37,016 nucleotides of DNA, from positions 1 through 37,016 of the forward strand of contig JAISTS010000113.1 in assembly GCA_031272455.1 (NCBI GenBank), read 5' to 3'. Shown in pieces: positions 2,208-28,169 of this stretch. The DNA comes from Tannerella sp. Its GTDB lineage: Bacteria; Bacteroidota; Bacteroidia; Bacteroidales; Tannerellaceae. How positions within the stretch are numbered: the stretch's first letter is position 1; each line of letters begins with the position of its first letter. Both the position numbers and the translations under genes were made by a program. Under the pieces are notes generated by a model, which did not search any database, was not told where the DNA came from, and saw only the letters and a list, made by a program, of their open reading frames with translations.

Positions 2208-5200
2208 ATGAAAAATGCAAAAAAAATTCTGGTAGCAGTCATTTTTATCGCTATTGCCTCTGTGGTTAACTTGTCGGCTCAACCCCCGATAGTTCCTTCT
2301 GCGCAGGATCTTAACCGCCCTTTTGGTGATTACGACTGCGAGATGTTTCGCTCGCCCTCGCCGGTTTATCATCCTGAAACATGGTTTCACTTCATCGGCG
2401 GCAATGTGGCTCGCAAGGGCGTTACTGCCGACCTCGAAGCAATAGCGGGCGCTGGCTTGTCGGGCGTCCAACTGTTTCACGGTCAGTTTGGCGGCAAGTG
2501 GCCCGGCGTGGATATGCAGATAGCCTGCCTTAGCGAGACGTGGGACGAACTTGTAAAGTTCTCCGCCGAAGAAAGCCGCCGTCTGGGATTGCGCTTTACT
2601 ATGCAGAACTGTCCCGGATGGGCAATGTCGGGCGGTCCGTGGATAACGCCGGAGAACGCTATGCGCCAACTTGTGTGGAGCCGCTCCGACATTAGCGGCG
2701 GCGGCAAGATAAGCCTTGAACTGCCCCGCCCGCAGCCAAGCAACGAAGACTGGCGCGATTACCGAGACCTCTTCGTGCTGGCATTCCCTACGCCTTTAGA
2801 CGACAGCAGCGAACCGCTACGCGCAGTCGCTGTCAAAAGCGACGCTGCCGACAGTGATTCTCTTTGGACAAAAATGCTTGTCGAAGGCGCAGGAAGTATT
2901 ACGCTTACGCCATCTGTTGGCGGTCAGCCGCATTATATAGAAGTAACTTTCCCTGAACCGGTTATGCTCCGCACCATAGAGTTTTCCGACGTGGAAGGCT
3001 ATAATCACGGCTGGTGCTACGAGCCGGGCGTTACAGTTGCTGTTCAGGCTCTTACATCTGACGGTGGGGCAACGGAAATACTGAAAACCGCTATGCCGCC
3101 GTCGAATTGGTCGGACGACCGCCCCATTTCTTTAGCCTGCAACGAAGCAGAGAAGACAGCCAAATATCGCATAACTATTGAAAATCAATACAGTATGCGC
3201 CTGTCTTCCCTGCGCTTTTGTACTGCTGCCCGCAAGAACAACTGGGAAGCAGAAGCCGCTTGGACCTTGCGCGGCATTGTTCGCGCCAACGAACAGCCGC
3301 AGCAGTCGCCCGAAACGTTTATCAGCGGCAGCAAGATTCTTGACATCACTGCCTCGATGGACCGTAACGGGCGTCTGACATGGAAAGCGCCGGCAGGTAA
3401 ATGGACAGTACTGCGCATAGGGCACGTCAATGCGGGGCGTAAGAACGCTCCGGCGCCGCCCGAAGCGACAGGCTGGGAATGTGATAAACTGTCGTTCAAC
3501 GGTCCGCAAGCGCATTTTGCCGGCTATATCGGTCGCCTTGCCAACGGCGCGCTCAATGGCGGACTGCTCAACGGGATGCTGCTCGACAGTTGGGAATGTG
3601 GCTCGCAGACCTGGACTAATGCTATGGAGAGCGAATTTGAACAGCGTACCGGCTATAAGTTACGCAAATGGTTGCCGGCAGTGTTTGGCTATGTCGTTGA
3701 CAGTCACGAGATTTCAGCACGTTTCCTGCGCGACTGGCGCGGCGTCATCGGCGATTTGTTCGCCAACAAGTTCTATGGCGGTATGGCGAAATTAGCCTCC
3801 GAAAACGGACTGGATATACAGTATGAGACCGCTGCAGGCGATATTTTCCCTGCCGACATTATGGAATATTTCAAGCATGCCGACGTGCCGATGGCGGAAT
3901 TTTGGCAGCCACACGCCAACAGTTACGTGGGGTCTATCAACTTCAAACCGATTAAGCCCACCGCCTCCGCCGCCCATATATACGGCAAGCCGCGTGTGGC
4001 GGCAGAAGCCTTCACCTCGTTCTCGCTCACTTGGGACGAGCATTGGAGCATGCTGAAAGAGGTTGCCAATCTGAACTTTGCCGAAGGCGTTACGCACCTC
4101 GTTTTCCACACCTATACGCATAATCCGCGCACCGATTGGTTGCCGCCCGGCACGTCCTTTGGTTCGGGTATAGGCACGCCCTTCCTGCGCGGGCAGACCT
4201 GGTGGCGCTATATGCCGGAGTTTACAGCCTGCCTGTCGAGACTTAACTATCTGTTAGAGAGAGGTAAACCTGTTTCGGATGTGCTTTGGTATCTTGGAGA
4301 CGAAATTCCTCATAAACCTGACCAAAAGTTTGAAATCAAGGGATATAAGTACGACTATTGCAATCCCGACGCTCTGCTTAACCGTCTGTCGGTGCGCAAC
4401 GGCAAAATCGTTACGCCGGAAGGCTTGTGTTACAGCGTTTTATGGCTGCCTGACAACGAGCGTATGCTGCCGGAGACGCTTGAGAAACTTGTCGCCTTAG
4501 TGCGCGACGGAGCAGTGATAGTCGGCAATGCTCCGACAAGCATAGCAACGCTGACGGGCGGCGACAGGGCGCAGCAACGCTTCGATAAGGCTGTCAGCGA
4601 GTTATGGGGCGACGGGTTATCGCCATCCGTGCGCAGTGTAGGCAAGGGGGTGGCGCTGTCAGGCTTTGAAATCAGCGACGCACTGAATTATCTTGATATT
4701 AAGGCGGATGTAACCGGCGGCGAGGCGCTGTGGCTGCACCGGCAAACCGACAATGCCGACTGGTACTTCGTATCGGCGCCCTACGGCAAAGGTTTCAATG
4801 GGATGATGACGTTCAAAAATACCGGCTTTGCTGAGATTTGGGACCCCGTAAGCGGCGAAATAACCAAAGCAGATGTGGTTTATGCAAAACAGGGCTATTC
4901 AGCCATTCGTTTTGCTCTCGAAAGAGCGGGTTCGTGTTTTGTCGTTTTCCGCAAGGACGCTCACAGCGAAGGCGTCAAAAGTGTGGCGCCCAAAAAATCT
5001 GTTTCTGCGCAAGAAATCCGTTCTGCATGGACATTGTCGTTCCCCGACGGTTGGGGCGCGCCGGAAAAATTGGAAATCAGCGCTCTGAAAGCATGGAAAG
5101 ACCTTGACCTTTCGCCCGAAGGCAAAGCCTTCTCCGGAACAGTAACCTACACTGCTACTTTCGACGCCGGACAACTGCAAAGCGACGCTACATATATGCT

Positions 5201-6233
5201 TGACTTGGGGCGGGTAGAGATGATTGCTTCCGTTACGCTCAATGGTCGGAAATTGAGAACTTTATGGACGCCGCCCTATCAACTTGACGTAAGCAGTGCA
5301 TTGCACAGCGGCGAGAACATGCTGCAGATTGAAGTTACCGGCACATGGTTCAATCGCCTCGTTTATGACGCCAATCAGCCTGAAAATGAGCGCAAAACAT
5401 GGATTATCTCCGGTCCTGCCAAAAACAGTGAATTGCGGGAAAGTGGACTTTTGGGTCCTGTCGTGCTGCAAGTGCGCAGCGATAAAGAGCCGTCCGACGT
5501 CGTTAAAATCCATTCGCATAACGATTACACCCGCACGACGCCGTTCTATCAGGCATATTCGCAGCAAGTGGCGTCCATCGAAGCCGATATCTATGCTACG
5601 GATAACGAAGGCGAACTGCTTGTGGCTCACGACCTGAAAGACCTGCCGCAAGCTCCGACGCTCGACGAGGCATATATCCTGCCGCTCGTCAACCTGTTCA
5701 ATCTCAACTACGGACGTGCGTGGCGCAACAGCAACAAACGGCTTGTGTTGCTAATCGATTTAAAAACATCGCCGACGCCGACGCTCGACCGGCTTGTCGA
5801 GAAACTGAAGCAATATCCCGAAGTGTTTGACAGCAGCGTTAATCCATTGGCTGTCAGTGTGGTGATTTCGGGTGATATGCCCGACGCCTCAAAATTCGAT
5901 GAATATCCGCAGTTTATTTCGTTCGACGGTCAGAAAACGGACTACACTCAAGCACAATTGGAGCGGATATATATGGTCAGCCGCAGTTTTGGCGAGTTTT
6001 CGCGCTGGAACGGTAGTGGCAAAATCGCTGACAGCGAGCTTGTTAAAATCAAACAGATGATAGAAACGGCTCACAGTCAAGGCAAACCGATGCGTTTCTG
6101 GGGATGTCCCGACAACGAAAACGCTTGGCAAACATTTCATCAACTGGGCGTTGACTATATCAATACCGACAGACCCGAAGCCTGTACGGAATTTTTCAGA
6201 AGACAGAGAGGGTCAGGTTTAAAACAAAAATAA
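2208..6233 (+). CDS. Secreted GH106-like glycoside hydrolase fused to a PI-PLC/GDPD-like phosphodiesterase
   Basis: 1341 residues. Residues 1-24 form a signal peptide ending in NLSAQ. The glycosidase part begins at W59 (WFHFIGGNVARKGVTADL) and includes NCPGWAMSGGPWITPENA and LLDSWECGSQTW, signatures I associate with GH106 alpha-L-rhamnosidases and relatives. A galactose-binding-like beta-sandwich follows (LNGRKLRTLWTPPYQLDV, then GENMLQIEVTGTW). From H1102 the protein becomes a PI-PLC/glycerophosphodiester-phosphodiesterase-like TIM barrel: HSHNDY at 1102-1107, E1125, D1127 and H1141 match the two catalytic histidines and the metal ligands of that superfamily. The protein probably acts in the periplasm or at the outer surface on a rhamnose-containing glycan, perhaps one with a phosphodiester. 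No SusC/SusD pair is next to it. The leader at 2172-2207 is almost pure A/T. The glycosidase call is firmer than the substrate. Confidence 0.82.
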   Translation: MKNAKKILVAVIFIAIASVVNLSAQPPIVPSAQDLNRPFGDYDCEMFRSPSPVYHPETWFHFIGGNVARKGVTADLEAIAGAGLSGVQLFHGQFGGKWPGVDMQIACLSETWDELVKFSAEESRRLGLRFTMQNCPGWAMSGGPWITPENAMRQLVWSRSDISGGGKISLELPRPQPSNEDWRDYRDLFVLAFPTPLDDSSEPLRAVAVKSDAADSDSLWTKMLVEGAGSITLTPSVGGQPHYIEVTFPEPVMLRTIEFSDVEGYNHGWCYEPGVTVAVQALTSDGGATEILKTAMPPSNWSDDRPISLACNEAEKTAKYRITIENQYSMRLSSLRFCTAARKNNWEAEAAWTLRGIVRANEQPQQSPETFISGSKILDITASMDRNGRLTWKAPAGKWTVLRIGHVNAGRKNAPAPPEATGWECDKLSFNGPQAHFAGYIGRLANGALNGGLLNGMLLDSWECGSQTWTNAMESEFEQRTGYKLRKWLPAVFGYVVDSHEISARFLRDWRGVIGDLFANKFYGGMAKLASENGLDIQYETAAGDIFPADIMEYFKHADVPMAEFWQPHANSYVGSINFKPIKPTASAAHIYGKPRVAAEAFTSFSLTWDEHWSMLKEVANLNFAEGVTHLVFHTYTHNPRTDWLPPGTSFGSGIGTPFLRGQTWWRYMPEFTACLSRLNYLLERGKPVSDVLWYLGDEIPHKPDQKFEIKGYKYDYCNPDALLNRLSVRNGKIVTPEGLCYSVLWLPDNERMLPETLEKLVALVRDGAVIVGNAPTSIATLTGGDRAQQRFDKAVSELWGDGLSPSVRSVGKGVALSGFEISDALNYLDIKADVTGGEALWLHRQTDNADWYFVSAPYGKGFNGMMTFKNTGFAEIWDPVSGEITKADVVYAKQGYSAIRFALERAGSCFVVFRKDAHSEGVKSVAPKKSVSAQEIRSAWTLSFPDGWGAPEKLEISALKAWKDLDLSPEGKAFSGTVTYTATFDAGQLQSDATYMLDLGRVEMIASVTLNGRKLRTLWTPPYQLDVSSALHSGENMLQIEVTGTWFNRLVYDANQPENERKTWIISGPAKNSELRESGLLGPVVLQVRSDKEPSDVVKIHSHNDYTRTTPFYQAYSQQVASIEADIYATDNEGELLVAHDLKDLPQAPTLDEAYILPLVNLFNLNYGRAWRNSNKRLVLLIDLKTSPTPTLDRLVEKLKQYPEVFDSSVNPLAVSVVISGDMPDASKFDEYPQFISFDGQKTDYTQAQLERIYMVSRSFGEFSRWNGSGKIADSELVKIKQMIETAHSQGKPMRFWGCPDNENAWQTFHQLGVDYINTDRPEACTEFFRRQRGSGLKQK

Positions 6234-22783: not shown

Positions 22784-23002
22784 TCAGGCTTCTTGCTCTA
22801 CAGCGCTCTCGTCGATTTCTTTCAGTATCTGATGCACTTTCTCGCCCGTTTCGCTCAGTTTTGCCTTGCAGATTTTTATCAGCAGCGAGGCGCGTTCGAC
22901 CTTTTCCGACAACTCGTCAACCGACACATTTCCCTGTTCCAGCGAAGCGACAATCTTTTTCAGCTCTTCAAACGCTTCGGCATAATTTGTTTTTTCGCTC
23001 AT
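22784..23002 (-). CDS. xseB: Exodeoxyribonuclease VII small subunit
   Basis: 72 residues, the usual XseB size. NYAEAFEELKKIVASLEQGNVSVDELSEKV is the characteristic helical hairpin (about 6-35), followed by SLLIKICKAKLSETGEKV. It binds XseA as several copies per large subunit and helps degrade single-stranded DNA in the cytoplasm. Its ATG overlaps the xseA stop by four bases (ATGA), so the two are translationally coupled. Confidence 0.93.
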   Translation of the reverse strand: MSEKTNYAEAFEELKKIVASLEQGNVSVDELSEKVERASLLIKICKAKLSETGEKVHQILKEIDESAVEQEA

Positions 23003-24267
23003 AATTTTTCCTTATTAATGGTTTGTATTGTGCTTATTATATTTCCCTCATACAGAATGGTTTGCAGTGTGTCGTCAGCTTTCAGCCCGCTTACTTTCCT
23101 GACAGCTTTGCCATTATGGATGGTGATGCTGTATCCGCGTCGCATCACTTCCTTAGGGTCGAGATTGGCAACATTTTTTTCGATGCTGTCAAGTCGCAGT
23201 CGTTCTTCGCGTAGTACGCCGGCAGATTTGTCCGCCAACTTGTCGGCTATCAGCGTAATATGATTTTGATGCTTGAGAATGACAGTCTCGATGCCCGAAC
23301 GGAACAGCTTGGTTTCTGCGTTGAATTTTGTATTTGCGCTGTTCAGCATACGGTTGACGATGTTCGACAGTCGCTGTCCCGCCTGACGTACAGGAACGGC
23401 GAAATTATGAAACTGTTGCAGGAAGAAATCAGCCAAGTCGGTGGGTGTTATCAGGTTACGATATGCCACCATCTCTGTGATTGTTTCGTTAGTGATATGC
23501 CCGATACCGGTGAGCACGGGCAGGGGGAAAAGCGCAATCTCGCGTGCCAGTTCGTAATTGTTGTACGACGCCAGCCCCGTTTCGCCGCCACCGCCACGCA
23601 CTATCGCCACAGCATCAAAATGTTGCTTGACGCTGCGAATACGCCTGAGCTGGGCTGTGATAGACTTGATGATGCCATCGCCCTGAAGCACAGATGGAAA
23701 AAGGAAGTGGAAAAACACGTATCCCCACGGATTGTTGTCTATCTTGCCGAGAAAATCCTTGTATCCCTTGCTCGTTTCGACCGAGATAATGGCTATTCGC
23801 TTAGGCAGCACAGTCATCTGTAGCGATTTGTTGTTTGCGAAAATCCCTTCGTCGCGCAGCTTGCGGATGGTTTCCTGCTTCTCTTTTTCGAGGTCGCCAA
23901 GGGTGTAGTCGGGATCGATGTCGAAAATGCGCAAAGTCAGTCCGTGCGATGCGTCGAACGCGATTTTTGCCAGAAAAAGTATTTTGATGCCGTCTTTCAG
24001 CGGTTCGTTGAGGGTTTTGCGGAAGAGGTCGTCAATACGGCGATAGTCGTCGCCCCACAAAATAGCCCGTATCTGGGCGACGATTTTCCCGTTTTGTTTC
24101 TCGATAAGGTCGGGGTAGCAATGACCCGAATGTTTGTAATAATTCAGTTTGTTCATTTCCGCTTTGACCCAGAAAGCGCTCTTATACCGTTCCGTGAGCG
24201 TGTTCTGAACACTTTTCATCACCTCTGTCAGCGAGAATACAGTTTTGTCTTTTATCTTTTCCGACAT
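22999..24267 (-). CDS. xseA: Exodeoxyribonuclease VII large subunit
   Basis: 422 residues from the ATG at 24267 (MSEKIKDK). A longer frame back to a TTG at 24342 runs through the promoter and is rejected. An OB-fold (FWVKAEMNKLNYYKHSGHCY) is followed by the catalytic core with AIVRGGGGE, TGIGHITNETITEMVAYR and LITPTDLADFF, then a helical C-terminal region and a short terminal domain with RGYSITIHNGKAV. With XseB it digests single-stranded DNA to oligonucleotides and takes part in repair. The promoter TTTG-N19-TAGATTTG is the best match in the window. Confidence 0.95.
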   Translation of the reverse strand: MSEKIKDKTVFSLTEVMKSVQNTLTERYKSAFWVKAEMNKLNYYKHSGHCYPDLIEKQNGKIVAQIRAILWGDDYRRIDDLFRKTLNEPLKDGIKILFLAKIAFDASHGLTLRIFDIDPDYTLGDLEKEKQETIRKLRDEGIFANNKSLQMTVLPKRIAIISVETSKGYKDFLGKIDNNPWGYVFFHFLFPSVLQGDGIIKSITAQLRRIRSVKQHFDAVAIVRGGGGETGLASYNNYELAREIALFPLPVLTGIGHITNETITEMVAYRNLITPTDLADFFLQQFHNFAVPVRQAGQRLSNIVNRMLNSANTKFNAETKLFRSGIETVILKHQNHITLIADKLADKSAGVLREERLRLDSIEKNVANLDPKEVMRRGYSITIHNGKAVRKVSGLKADDTLQTILYEGNIISTIQTINKEKL

Positions 24268-24312
24268 ATCGACCGAATTATTTAGGATATCTGTTGACTG
24301 ATATTTCCGTTG

Positions 24313-24343
24313 CAAATCTATGTAAAATAAATTATCCGGCAAA
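24313..24343 (-). promoter_or_regulatory. Promoter of xseA (TTTG-N19-TAGATTTG)
   Basis: On the minus strand TTTG (24340-24343) and TAGATTTG (24313-24320) are separated by 19 bases, a full match to the Bacteroidota -33/-7 consensus. The ATG is 45 bases downstream of the -7 box. Confidence 0.8.
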
Positions 24344-24415
24344 GTTTTTCCGAAAAATTATCAACAATTCGCAAGATTTTTGCTATTCGAGGCGTCGTTT
24401 TTCGCAAAAAGTCCG

Positions 24416-24423
24416 TTCCTTTG
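24416..24423 (+). promoter_or_regulatory. Candidate -7 element TTCCTTTG of the radical SAM gene
   Basis: TTCCTTTG differs from TAnnTTTG at one fixed position. Only six bases lie between its end and the ATG at 24430, so a transcript from it would start at or next to the start codon. Confidence 0.45.
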
Positions 24424-24429
24424 TGCGAT

Positions 24430-25704
24430 ATGAACGAAGCTGTATTGGAAAAACTCAAAGTTCTGGCGGAGTCGGCGAAATATGATGTCTCGTGTGCCTC
24501 CAGCGGCACTGTCAGGGCTAATAAATCCGGCGGATTGGGCAACACAGTCGGCGGACTGGGTATTTGCCATAGCTTTGCTGACGACGGGCGGTGCGTGTCG
24601 CTGCTTAAAATTATGCTGACTAACAACTGTATATACGACTGTGCCTACTGCATCAACCGTCGAAGTAACGACATTCGCCGTGCGACATTCTCGGTCAGCG
24701 AGCTTGTCGAACTGACGATAGAGTTTTACCGCCGTAACTATATCGAGGGGCTGTTTTTGAGTTCGGGCGTCGTTCGCAATCCCGACTATACGATGGAGCG
24801 GATGGTGCGCGTTGTCAAGGATTTGCGCACTGTGCATCGTTTCAACGGCTATATCCACCTGAAAAGCATCCCCGGATGCAGTCAGGATTTGGTTAACGAG
24901 GGCGGACGCTATGCCGACCGTATGAGCGTGAATCTTGAAATCCCGACCGAACAGAATCTGATGCTGCTCGCGCCCGAAAAGAATTTCAGCAGCGTATTTA
25001 CGCCGATGCGCTATATTCAGCAAGGTATGTTACAGAGCCTCGAAGACCGCCGCAAGTTTCGCCACGCACCGCGTTTCGTTCCCGCCGGACAGAGCACACA
25101 GGTGATAGTTGGTGCTACGCCCGAAAGCGACCGCGACATACTGCGCATCTCGTCGGCGCTATACAAACGTCCGAGTATGAAACGGGTATATTATTCCGGA
25201 TATATCCCCGTCAACACCTACGACACTCGCTTGCCTGCGCTGCCATGTGCGCCCCTTGTGCGCGAAAACCGCCTGTATCAGGCTGACTGGCTGATGCGTT
25301 TCTATGAGTTTCGCGCCGAAGAGCTGACCGACGACCAACATCCAGACCTCGAAATGGAAATCGACCCCAAGCTGTCGTGGGCGCTGCGTCATCCCGAATT
25401 TTTTCCCGTTGACGTCAACAAAGCCGATTATGCTATGCTGCTGCGTATTCCCGGCGTCGGCGTCAAGTCTGCCAAACTGATTATCGCTTCGAGGCGTTAC
25501 GGGCGGCTGTCGTCCGAACAGCTGAAGAAAATCGGCGTCGTGATGAAGAAAGCGCAGTATTTCATCACCTGCCGCGAACTGCCTGTGCACGCCATTCAGG
25601 ACGTCTCACCAGAATATGTACGCAAAGCCCTTACCGAGCCTAAGAAACGGAAAATGCTAATAGACCGCAGTCAGCTGTCGTTAGTCTTTGCGGATAATTG
25701 TTAA
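24430..25704 (+). CDS. Putative DNA modification/repair radical SAM protein (UDG-linked family, TIGR03916-like)
   Basis: 424 residues from the ATG at 24430. A conserved N-terminal block (LKVLAESAKYDVSCASSGT) precedes the radical SAM motif CxxxCxxC at C67, C71 and C74 (NNCIYDCAYC), which holds a 4Fe-4S cluster and SAM. GYIHLKSIPGCSQDLV and YADRMSVNLEIPTE belong to the barrel. The C-terminal part (about 326-380: VDVNKADYAMLLRIPGVG) is a helix-hairpin-helix DNA-binding module. The family is known to occur paired with DUF4130 proteins that in many genomes are fused to a uracil-DNA glycosylase-like domain, hence the link to DNA repair or modification; the reaction is not known. The partner follows 82 bases downstream. 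The start may be leaderless. Confidence 0.9.
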   Translation: MNEAVLEKLKVLAESAKYDVSCASSGTVRANKSGGLGNTVGGLGICHSFADDGRCVSLLKIMLTNNCIYDCAYCINRRSNDIRRATFSVSELVELTIEFYRRNYIEGLFLSSGVVRNPDYTMERMVRVVKDLRTVHRFNGYIHLKSIPGCSQDLVNEGGRYADRMSVNLEIPTEQNLMLLAPEKNFSSVFTPMRYIQQGMLQSLEDRRKFRHAPRFVPAGQSTQVIVGATPESDRDILRISSALYKRPSMKRVYYSGYIPVNTYDTRLPALPCAPLVRENRLYQADWLMRFYEFRAEELTDDQHPDLEMEIDPKLSWALRHPEFFPVDVNKADYAMLLRIPGVGVKSAKLIIASRRYGRLSSEQLKKIGVVMKKAQYFITCRELPVHAIQDVSPEYVRKALTEPKKRKMLIDRSQLSLVFADNC

Positions 25705-25731
25705 AAGATGGTTAAGCAAATGCGAATTACG

Positions 25732-25739
25732 TATTTTTG
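25732..25739 (+). promoter_or_regulatory. Upstream -7 element TATTTTTG for the DUF4130 gene
   Basis: TATTTTTG matches TAnnTTTG in the gap after the radical SAM gene and would give a leader of about 40 bases. A second, weaker box lies downstream at 25773-25780. Confidence 0.5.
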
Positions 25740-25772
25740 CAAAAATTTAGTCTCGCTTTAATGAAAAAGTCG

Positions 25773-25780
25773 TTACTTTG
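25773..25780 (+). promoter_or_regulatory. Downstream -7-like element TTACTTTG for the DUF4130 gene
   Basis: TTACTTTG differs from the consensus at one position and ends six bases before the ATG at 25787, the same spacing as in front of the radical SAM gene. Use of this box would give a leaderless transcript. Confidence 0.4.
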
Positions 25781-25786
25781 CAGGTG

Positions 25787-26557
25787 ATGAACGATACGGT
25801 GTTTTTTTACGATAAGACATTCGATGGGCTGCTCTCGGCGGTATTCGATGCTTACAGTCGCAAGATGTTCCCCGGCAGGTTGCTGAAAACGGGCGATGTG
25901 GCGCCGCTGTTTGCCGACAGCTGTCATACGGTCGCTACGGACGTCGAACATTCGTCGCGTGTGATGACGGCATTGCGCTCTAAGCTCGGTCGCGAGGTCT
26001 GTAATATGCTGCTTTATGCATGGCTGTCGGAGGTTGAGGGCAGCGACGAAATGTTGTTCAGGTATATCTGTAAGGCGTTTGACCGCGAGCAGACGATAGT
26101 CTGGAATTTTGGCGACAGCGATGTGCTCGAAGTGATGCGTCTTGCCCGCAAGACCGCTCGCGAGGAACAGATGCTCAAGCAGTTTGTCCGTTTCCAGAAG
26201 GCGGCTGACGACATTTTCTTTGCGCCTGTGCGTCCGCTTTGCAATGCTTTGCCGTTGGTTATCAACCACTTCGCCGACCGTTTCGCCGACCAGCAATGGG
26301 TGATTTACGATGTGGCGCGTCATTACGGCTATCATTACGACCTCAAGGATGCGCGCGAAATCACTTTTGCCGACGACGACCATCTCTTGAGCGGCAAACT
26401 CGACGAATCGCTGATGGCTGATGACGAAAAACTGTTTCAAGACCTCTGGAAAGGCTATTTCAAAGCCATAGCTATCAAAGAACGCATCAATCCCCGCAAA
26501 CAAAAACAGGATATGCCCGTGCGATTTTGGGAATATCTTACAGAGAAACAAACCTGA
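25787..26557 (+). CDS. DUF4130/TIGR03915-type protein, partner of the radical SAM protein
   Basis: 256 residues from the ATG at 25787; the longer frame would begin with a TTG inside the promoter-like box. The N-terminal FFYDKTFDGLLSAVFDAYSR, the middle FVRFQKAADDIFFAPVRPLCNALPLV and HFADRFADQQWVIYDVARHYG, and the C-terminal LWKGYFKAIAIKERINPRKQ with MPVRFWEYLTE match the family that always accompanies the radical SAM protein upstream. In many bacteria this domain is fused to a uracil-DNA glycosylase-like domain; here it stands alone. There is no signal peptide. Its activity is unknown; DNA repair or base modification together with its neighbour is inferred from the association. Confidence 0.88.
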   Translation: MNDTVFFYDKTFDGLLSAVFDAYSRKMFPGRLLKTGDVAPLFADSCHTVATDVEHSSRVMTALRSKLGREVCNMLLYAWLSEVEGSDEMLFRYICKAFDREQTIVWNFGDSDVLEVMRLARKTAREEQMLKQFVRFQKAADDIFFAPVRPLCNALPLVINHFADRFADQQWVIYDVARHYGYHYDLKDAREITFADDDHLLSGKLDESLMADDEKLFQDLWKGYFKAIAIKERINPRKQKQDMPVRFWEYLTEKQT

Positions 26558-26639: not shown

Positions 26640-28169
26640 ATGCTTACACCAGAAGACAACGATTTATTGGCGCGGAAACAGATATCTGAAGCGCAGTTAA
26701 ACAAGCAGTTAAAGCAGTTTGCCGACGGTTTTCCGTATCTTGGAATATCGGCATCGGCATCGGTTGAGCGGGGCATCCGCGCGGTTACGTCCGACGAGCA
26801 GGAAAAGTATATCCGCATTTGGGACAGCTATCCGGCTGCGGGGCAGCGTATCGTCAAGTTTGTGCCGGCTTCGGGCGCGGCAAGTCGTATGTTCAAGGCT
26901 CTGTTTGAGTTTCTTGATGCGCCGTACGACACGCCCTCGACGGAGTTTGAAAAGACATTTTTTGACAATATAACGAAGTTCGCTTTTTTCGCTGCTTTAG
27001 ACGAGCGGCTGAAACAGAGTGCGGGCAAAAGTGCGGCTGAGTTGATCGCCGAAGGGCGGTACAAGACCGTCGTATCGCATCTGCTTCGGTCTGAAGGTCT
27101 TAACTATGGTTCGCTGCCGAAGGGCGTGTTGCTGTTTCATCGCTATCCCGATATGGCGCGAACGGCTCTTGGCGAGCATCTGGCTGAGGGGGCGCTCTAT
27201 GCCCTTAACGGCGACAATATGGTGCATATCCATCTCACCGTCTCGCCCGAACACAGGACGCTGTTTGAGCAGCTTGTCGCTGAGCGCAAACCGTATTACG
27301 AGCGGACAACGGGTGCAGGTTACGATGTAACGTTCAGTACGCAATCGCCTTCGACCGACACCATTGCCGTTGATGCTGCAAACCAGCCGCTGCGCGATGC
27401 GTCGGGAGCGCTTGAGTTTCGTCCGGGCGGGCACGGAGCGCTTATCGGCAATCTTAATGATATCGACGCCGACGTTATCTTTATTAAAAATATCGACAAC
27501 GTGGTACCCGACCATCTCAAGCCGACTACCGTGCGTTACAAGAAGGTTTTGGCGGGCATACTCGTTGATACTCAGCGGCGTATGTTCGACTATGTGCGGT
27601 TGATTGACAGCGGCGACTATACCCACGAGCAGATGGTCGAGATGATATATTTCCTGCAAAACGACCTTTGCATCAAAAATCTCGACACCAAATATCTCGA
27701 AGATGCCGAGCTGATGCTGTACATCAAGCGTAAACTGCTGCGCCCGTTGCGTGTCTGCGGGATGGTGCGCAACGTTGGCGAGCCGGGCGGCGGACCGTTC
27801 TTTGCCTTCAATTCCGACGGCACCATATCGCTGCAAATCCTCGAAAGTTCGCAGATAGATATGACCGATCCGGCGAAAAAGGCGCTCTTTGAACGCGGCA
27901 CGCATTTCAATCCCGTTGACCTTGTATGTGCAACGAAAGATCCTGACGGACAGAAATATAACCTGCACAATTTTGTGGACGAGAACACCGGTTTTATCTC
28001 GCAGAAGAGCAAGAACGGACGCGAACTCAAGGCGCTCGAACTGCCCGGACTGTGGAACGGCGCGATGAGCGACTGGAATACTATCTTCGTCGAAGTGCCG
28101 ATTGAGACCTTTAATCCCGTCAAGACCGTGAACGACCTTTTGCGGGCGCAACATCAACCTTGGGGTTAG
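26640..28169 (+). CDS. DUF4301 family protein, nucleotidyltransferase-like
   Basis: 509 residues from the ATG at 26640 (MLTPEDND), which follows the promoter; an earlier ATG at 26574 would place the -7 box inside the gene. I recognise the Bacteroidota family DUF4301 from FPYLGISASASVERGI, FVPASGAASRMFKALFEFL, GALIGNLNDIDADVIFIKNIDN and MVRNVGEPGGGPFFA. The VPASGAASRMFK loop near the N-terminus and the later HGALIGNL and KNIDNVVPD resemble nucleotide-sugar pyrophosphorylases (GGxGxR loop and NxDN near the metal site). Sugar-nucleotide synthesis is therefore possible, but this is inference. It is cytoplasmic by sequence. The heptamer repeat at 28168 supplies its TAG stop. Confidence 0.82.
   Translation: MLTPEDNDLLARKQISEAQLNKQLKQFADGFPYLGISASASVERGIRAVTSDEQEKYIRIWDSYPAAGQRIVKFVPASGAASRMFKALFEFLDAPYDTPSTEFEKTFFDNITKFAFFAALDERLKQSAGKSAAELIAEGRYKTVVSHLLRSEGLNYGSLPKGVLLFHRYPDMARTALGEHLAEGALYALNGDNMVHIHLTVSPEHRTLFEQLVAERKPYYERTTGAGYDVTFSTQSPSTDTIAVDAANQPLRDASGALEFRPGGHGALIGNLNDIDADVIFIKNIDNVVPDHLKPTTVRYKKVLAGILVDTQRRMFDYVRLIDSGDYTHEQMVEMIYFLQNDLCIKNLDTKYLEDAELMLYIKRKLLRPLRVCGMVRNVGEPGGGPFFAFNSDGTISLQILESSQIDMTDPAKKALFERGTHFNPVDLVCATKDPDGQKYNLHNFVDENTGFISQKSKNGRELKALELPGLWNGAMSDWNTIFVEVPIETFNPVKTVNDLLRAQHQPWG

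Follow-up and report, generated by a model that had tools for sequence, protein, structure and literature searches.

What does a radical-SAM protein do together with a DUF4130 protein encoded beside it? The question is raised by two adjacent genes in a 37,016-nucleotide stretch of Tannerella sp. DNA, referred to below as the window. A first-pass annotation had placed this pair at 24430..26557 and pointed to DNA repair or base modification as its function. NCBIfam already defines this pair, which has also been mentioned in print. The locus is an ordinary member of this known, apparently uncharacterised kind, and no reaction was found for the pair in the literature searched. SOS boxes upstream of the pair in several other bacteria indicate that it is probably a DNA-repair tool.

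The two genes and their neighbors

Both open reading frames (ORFs) were recovered at the annotated positions. The first gene (24430..25704, plus strand, ATG at 24430) encodes a 424-aa radical-SAM protein with a C-terminal helix-hairpin-helix (HhH) module, as identified by profile matches and an AlphaFold2 model. It matched the NCBIfam profile TIGR03916 with 647.3 bits (cut-off 343.5) over profile positions 2-413 of 415, and the Pfam model Radical_SAM with 30.1 bits (cut-off 29.5). The second gene (25787..26557, plus strand, ATG at 25787) encodes a stand-alone DUF4130 protein of 256 aa, supported by its own model and by matches to TIGR03915 (NCBIfam; 242.1 bits, cut-off 112.25) and DUF4130 (Pfam; 168.8 bits, cut-off 27). 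The TIGR03916 and TIGR03915 profiles cover the two proteins nearly end to end, confirming the presence of the pair.

Divergent from the pair, on the minus strand, lie xseA (22999-24342; PF02601 match), an ORF that starts with TTG and has an ATG inside it at 24267, and, at 22784-23002, an ORF of 72 aa taken for XseB by size and position. A DUF4301 gene (Pfam) is located downstream of the pair. The divergent xseAB genes had been pointed out previously, and they are indeed present here, but they are not a conserved neighbor. Clustering of 891 ORFs from the loci of the best 80 of 590 relatives recovered the radical-SAM family at 77 loci and DUF4130 at 71, while the next commonest family reached only 6. 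The pair is therefore the unit and xseAB falls outside it, its position beside the pair being incidental.

Pairing of the two families

Profile searches of 148 genomes of the phylum (Bacteroidota) found both genes in 41 genomes, the radical-SAM gene only in 2, the DUF4130 gene only in 2 (G033 and G134) and neither in 103 (Fisher p 1.3e-31 for co-occurrence, with kinship between genomes ignored). The 43 genomes counted for TIGR03916 comprise 41 above the cut-off, one with a split gene (G052) and one with a fragment (G060), the last two being retained; TIGR03915 was likewise present in 43. At E 0.001, TIGR03916 matched 79 genomes, 36 of which were dropped because none of their matches reached the cut-off and all were short or weak, most of them falling in the HhH region. 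In both genomes with the radical-SAM gene only (G024 and G121), this gene lies at a contig edge, on the side expected for the partner. The co-occurrence claimed for the two families was thus borne out genome-wide, 41 of the 43 TIGR03916 carriers having both, and the profile searches placed neither protein in a characterised family.

The two genes are also close neighbors. DUF4130 was present within the retrieved stretch in 73 of the best 80 of 590 relatives. Of the remaining seven, one (L073) has an incomplete stretch and five of the other six have DUF4130 elsewhere in the genome; a whole-genome check found none in L072. In 128/128 pairs, the radical-SAM gene precedes DUF4130 and the two share a strand; the gap between them has a median of 4 nt and is at most 100 nt in 105 pairs. 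The window DUF4130 gene may have its own promoter, judging from a match to the Bacteroidota -7 element. The consensus of this element is TAnnTTTG, and TTACTTTG (25773..25780, plus strand), located before the gene, differs from it by one mismatch.

Searches of viral collections indicated that the pair is mostly cellular. Two peptide patterns identified 2 relatives in the 2.9 million viral contigs of IMG/VR, and one of these (L153) carries an alphaproteobacterial SOS box, at -35, suggesting that it is perhaps cellular. The PHROG and PADLOC libraries gave no match for the pair. Ten matching records were found in a phage collection: eight are unannotated fecal records and two are labelled 'Acinetobacter phage', and the one of these two that was opened carries glyS, glyQ and aroE and looks like a bacterial chromosome. 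We accordingly rejected a phage origin for the family at large.

UdgX fusions and stand-alone partners

The DUF4130 protein had been described as often fused elsewhere to a uracil-DNA glycosylase (UDG)-like domain. Such a fusion exists, and its domain can be specified as UdgX. We read 14 alphaproteobacterial and 2 betaproteobacterial plasmid loci, picked from 158 matching records so as to cover a range of genera, and the partner was a UdgX fusion in all 16. The four partners scanned (477-494 aa) all exceeded the cut-offs of both TIGR03915 and TIGR03914 (UdgX), and the C-terminal part of one searched fusion partner aligned with the solved Mycobacterium smegmatis UdgX. Motif A is GEQPG in 14 of the 16 and GEAPG in the other 2. 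In the R-loop, 14 have K-x-R-x-H, L149 has RRRLH and L201 has RKRLH; R-x-H is thus common to 16/16, and the crosslinking histidine is kept in every alpha/beta partner read. This R-loop histidine bonds to C1' of the abasic site, according to the text available from PMC10359453.

Partners from other groups stand alone. This was the case for three gammaproteobacterial partners (L100, L111 and L151, from Acinetobacter and Moraxella) and the delta-labelled L080, all of 259-265 aa, as well as for the clostridial and fusobacterial partners read. Within the phylum, 0/148 genomes had a TIGR03914 match above the cut-off; weaker matches occurred in 106, none of them listed in the window's class. The suggestion that this genome holds a minimal form of the system is therefore misleading, as the stand-alone partner is the norm in the phylum and the normal form here. 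The absence of the glycosylase-like part was itself confirmed: TIGR03914 had no match at E 1e-10 in the window genome, which is 85.5% complete. A separate UDG-like gene was found in this genome, a 220-aa ORF with a GQDPYH motif that is its sole UDG-superfamily match and that we read, from this motif, as a putative canonical Ung.

A TIGR04274-related glycosylase, with matches below the cut-off, was considered separately as a partner and rejected as a general one. It is present in 4/80 loci (best 80 of 590). Among 118 genomes of the window's family, 75 had a match; when positions were compared by eye, G176 was the only one in which it was no more than 5 kb from DUF4130. No match was obtained in the window genome.

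SOS boxes upstream of the pair

SOS boxes were first noticed in three alpha loci and one beta locus, and then in 11/11 and 1/1 loci retrieved later. In total, the alpha box GTTC-N7-GTTC is present upstream of the radical-SAM gene in 14/14 loci, at -17 to -43 relative to the start as annotated or matched; elsewhere in these loci, 109 kb of sequence contains it 2 more times. Both beta loci (2/2) have the beta box CTGT-N8-ACAG, and GAAC-N4-GTTC was found upstream of the gene in 1/4 clostridial or fusobacterial loci.

For Bacteroidota, we scanned the 104 members of L002-L112 whose upstream sequence is 150 nt or longer; L080, L094, L100, L104 and L111, which belong to other phyla, were scanned separately. 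The Bacteroidetes box CTAA-N5-TTAG occurred in 18/104 loci against 0.24 expected. GGA-N5-TCC showed no excess (3/104, 3.3 expected), and TTAC-N5-GTAA was absent upstream of the radical-SAM gene in all 104. With groups assigned from record titles, CTAA-N5-TTAG was present in 15/19 loci of Sphingobacteriia, Cytophagia or Chitinophagia type, in 0/7 Flavobacteriia loci and in 0/46 of the Bacteroidales-like set L033-L078, the nearest relatives of the window. No SOS box was detected in the gamma (0/3) and delta (0/1) loci, Spirosoma L148, the fecal scaffold L150 or Fibrobacter L104, and Fibrimonadaceae L094 has one GAAC-N4-GTTC at -6. The window copy belongs with the boxless loci: none of six SOS-box patterns was found in 24230-24440, an interval that includes the upstream region common to the radical-SAM gene and xseA (24268..24429, plus strand). 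The LexA DNA-binding domain PF01726 had no match in the window genome (G000), a search that covered canonical LexA as distinct from the non-canonical Bacteroidetes LexA of PMC8565304.

A link to SOS is already in print for the COG1573-COG4277 operon and is to that extent not novel; added here is the survey of SOS boxes across groups, with counts. We take COG4277 to be the TIGR03916 radical-SAM family. In the accessible portion of PMC8565304, SOS control is predicted for this operon in Bacteroidetes and cited for Verrucomicrobia and Alphaproteobacteria, and the Bacteroidetes SOS operon is inferred to be UDG-based. On this last point bears our Pfam scan of the DUF4130 partners themselves, as distinct from the intervening genes in L087 and L093: none of the 10 partners scanned from the 18 SOS-boxed Bacteroidota loci has a UDG domain. 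In Clostridium acetobutylicum, CAC3343-CAC3344, a radical-SAM protein with the family name and an unknown protein, are predicted to be under LexA control, on the basis of footprinting analysis and expression data, in the excerpt available of PMC3828012. Partial texts of other papers mention a gene bearing the radical-SAM family name whose expression in Acinetobacter Tol 5 rises at 8% humidity (PMC13130816), a Fusobacterium gene bearing that name with a value of 1.585 in coculture (PMC9848294) and a listed family gene (PMC9611098). The radical-SAM gene in the part seen of PMC5554334 is NirJ, outside the TIGR03916 family, and was set aside. The literature searched contained nothing that links UdgX to radical SAM, and nothing on radical-SAM with cisplatin or transposon fitness.

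Features of the two proteins

The radical-SAM cysteines previously claimed, C67, C71 and C74, form the CX3CX2C motif of the [4Fe-4S] cluster (24628..24651, plus strand) and are invariant in 55/55 alignment rows (the script alignments left out L001 and L013, the window itself). C22, C46, H47 and C55 are equally invariant in all 55 rows and are present in 11 further loci. The segment carrying them (24493..24594, plus strand) is modelled with a confidence below 50, and from their invariance C22, C46 and C55 are perhaps ligands of a second Fe-S cluster. The HhH DNA-binding module (residues 327-374; 25408..25551, plus strand) is a candidate assignment from a PF12836 (HHH_3) match of 26.4 bits, narrowly below the cut-off of 27, with E 7.8e-6. 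The AlphaFold2 model as a whole has a mean pLDDT of 78, and its structural neighbors are radical-SAM enzymes.

The model of the DUF4130 protein has a mean pLDDT of 93 and weakly resembles DHH/DHHA1 proteins. The 50 structural matches listed are DHH or DHHA1 proteins, some classed by title, others presumably so by family and one (5ghs) by its alignment range only; they cover residues 1-214 with low scores. None of the columns conserved at 93% in 129 DUF4130 sequences contains the catalytic DxD or DHH motifs, and Pfam at E 0.1 gave no DHH match for the window protein. Conserved residues of DUF4130 include R135, R165, D175, R178, W221, R233 and W248. Comparison by hhalign of DUF4130 with NrnA and RecJ gave no signal and is uninformative, since the control comparison of NrnA with RecJ gave none either. 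Departures at the near-invariant H128, R129 and D151 in a first alignment raised the suspicion that the window protein was a degenerate copy. This was rejected: the three positions vary among Bacteroidales relatives, and the window protein retains every column conserved at 93% or above.

Discussion

We consider it rather probable that the radical-SAM and DUF4130 proteins form a two-subunit module for the repair of DNA damage, taking any lesion together; our confidence in any single specific lesion is lower. In the proposed complex, the radical-SAM subunit would bind DNA via its HhH module and a 5'-deoxyadenosyl radical would process the damaged nucleotide in place, a second Fe-S cluster at C22/C46/C55 perhaps assisting this chemistry. 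The second subunit, DUF4130, would be required and probably non-catalytic, holding the DNA with a DHH/DHHA1-like fold. Where UdgX is fused to it, in Alpha- and Betaproteobacteria, this domain would trap uracil or abasic positions through a covalent bond. Its presence there suggests such positions as the target, and our leading guess for the lesion is a deaminated or abasic pyrimidine position. Expression of the module in the window organism would be either constitutive or under control other than canonical LexA. Taken at its fullest, the proposal would place a new class of DNA repair by radical chemistry beside spore photoproduct lyase. An SOS-induced complex, made up of a radical-SAM enzyme with two clusters and a DNA clamp that has the DHH/DHHA1 fold without its catalytic activity, would act on uracil-derived or abasic sites, and in Alpha- and Betaproteobacteria a fused covalent UdgX trap would deliver these sites; we advance this version tentatively and regard it as doubtful.

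Programmed base modification would have the radical-SAM enzyme install a modified base in genomic DNA while DUF4130 positions the target base. Radical-SAM chemistry is suited to such a task, the NCBIfam name of TIGR03916 includes 'putative DNA modification/repair' and an SOS box is missing from the window copy. However, the SOS boxes in other groups, the scarcity of viral relatives (one of the two being perhaps cellular), the lack of PADLOC and PHROG matches and the absence of any further family beside the pair in more than 6/80 loci (best 80 of 590) make modification decidedly unlikely. Of the two directions first envisaged, repair is the one favored. Another possibility is that the pair processes abasic or UdgX-crosslinked sites: fused UdgX, or Ung in the window organism, would make the site, and the radical-SAM enzyme would abstract a sugar hydrogen and release the crosslink or convert the site. 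This idea overlaps with the repair module proposed above. The UdgX fusions at all 16 alpha/beta loci with their conserved R-x-H, the bond of the histidine to C1' given in the part available of PMC10359453 and the Ung-like ORF of the window genome all favor it. Against this, the stand-alone partners of Bacteroidota, Clostridia, Fusobacteria and Gammaproteobacteria have no UdgX to release, so this cannot be the sole role. We also know of no radical enzyme that acts on abasic sites, and we judge this possibility unlikely.

To our knowledge, spore photoproduct lyase (SplB) is the only DNA-repair radical-SAM enzyme with an established reaction. The window enzyme could resemble it and directly reverse a pyrimidine photoproduct. 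Aravind and colleagues associate DUF4130 with 'SplB-like radical SAM photolyases' in the passage available from PMC3765255, and SOS control is compatible with UV damage. Yet searches of Pfam at E up to 0.1 and of NCBIfam at E up to 0.01 found no spore photoproduct lyase model, SplB is COG1533 and is listed apart from the COG1573-COG4277 operon in the text seen of PMC8565304, and record titles identify many carriers among the best 80 of 590 relatives as gut bacteria, for which UV exposure should be small. The lyase was also absent from the structural neighbors listed for the radical-SAM model, a listing that cannot show true absence. Direct photoproduct reversal thus appears very improbable.

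The window pair differs in distinct ways from its closest known systems, among which we also count lipoyl synthase (LIAS). The TIGR03916/TIGR03915 pair and the COG1573-COG4277 SOS operon are like the window locus in families, order and pairing, but the operon is predicted to be SOS-controlled and is called UDG-based in the available part of PMC8565304, whereas the window copy lacks an SOS box. UdgX of M. smegmatis has motif A and the R-loop histidine in common with the alpha/beta fusion partners; it is not in the window protein and was not found in the 85.5% complete window genome, and its solved chains (205-229 residues) are without DUF4130. RecJ, Cdc45 and NrnA represent the DHH-DHHA1 superfamily to which the listed neighbors of the DUF4130 model over residues 1-214 belong, but DUF4130 lacks their DHH or DxD signature and a DHH profile match, and the structural scores are low. 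SplB is a radical-SAM enzyme that acts on DNA, as stated in the text seen of PMC8307549 and as proposed for the pair; it shows no profile match with the window enzyme, whose family has the extra N-terminal cysteines, the HhH module and a regular partner.

The pair occurs widely, its two genes are tightly coupled, and in several groups it has a link to SOS. The identification of UdgX with its motif check, the survey of SOS boxes, the fold lead for DUF4130 and the extra cysteines are added here and render the question of its function testable. In particular, the identity of UdgX and the SOS boxes point to concrete substrates, namely uracil-containing, abasic or UdgX-trapped DNA, and to a condition, SOS induction, under which the pair may act.

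Sequence variation in the DUF4130 protein

Two DUF4130 motifs, REKHRM and PD, were variable among Bacteroidales, as observed at 26159-26239 of the window and in the Bacteroidales-like loci L033-L078, the nearest relatives of the window. Most other aligned loci retained both motifs. The Bacteroidales, with their variable motifs, are also the group lacking SOS boxes upstream of the radical SAM gene.

Arrangement and neighbors of the pair

In seven Hymenobacter and Chryseobacterium loci (L083, L084, L087, L093, L099, L102 and L112), the radical SAM and DUF4130 genes were separated by 0.2-4.5 kb. Their order and orientation were nevertheless the usual ones, the two genes sharing a strand and DUF4130 coming second. 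No CTAA-N5-TTAG or GGA-N5-TCC box was present within 150 nt upstream of DUF4130 in any of them.

In the window, a DUF4301 gene (26640-28169; 746.7 bits) lies directly downstream of the pair on the same strand. Glycosylases related to TIGR04274, scoring below its cut-off, directly adjoined the pair in L051 (5259-5843, minus strand) and L092 (8119-8709, plus strand); in L042 and L073 the distance to the pair was 4-5 kb. A TIGR04274-related glycosylase was rejected as a general partner of the pair.

Records labelled as phage or virus, and a distant relative

The pair in L151 (CAKLQH020000003.1), named Acinetobacter phage, is surrounded by glyS, glyQ and aroE, and this record looks like bacterial chromosome. 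On L153, an IMG/VR contig labelled 'viral', the radical SAM gene carries an alphaproteobacterial SOS box (GTTC-N7-GTTC) at -35, and DUF4130 was not found in the 0.8 kb downstream. In L150 (11085 onward), an unverified scaffold of fecal origin labelled 'phage', a large ORF comes after the pair; it contains a P-loop-like GVGKT motif and may encode a helicase.

Finally, a distant radical SAM relative from Gemmatirosa (34% identity; L204, around 5001-6008) lacks the three N-terminal cysteines, and DUF4130 was absent from the fetched stretch around it. This relative may therefore represent a separate subfamily.
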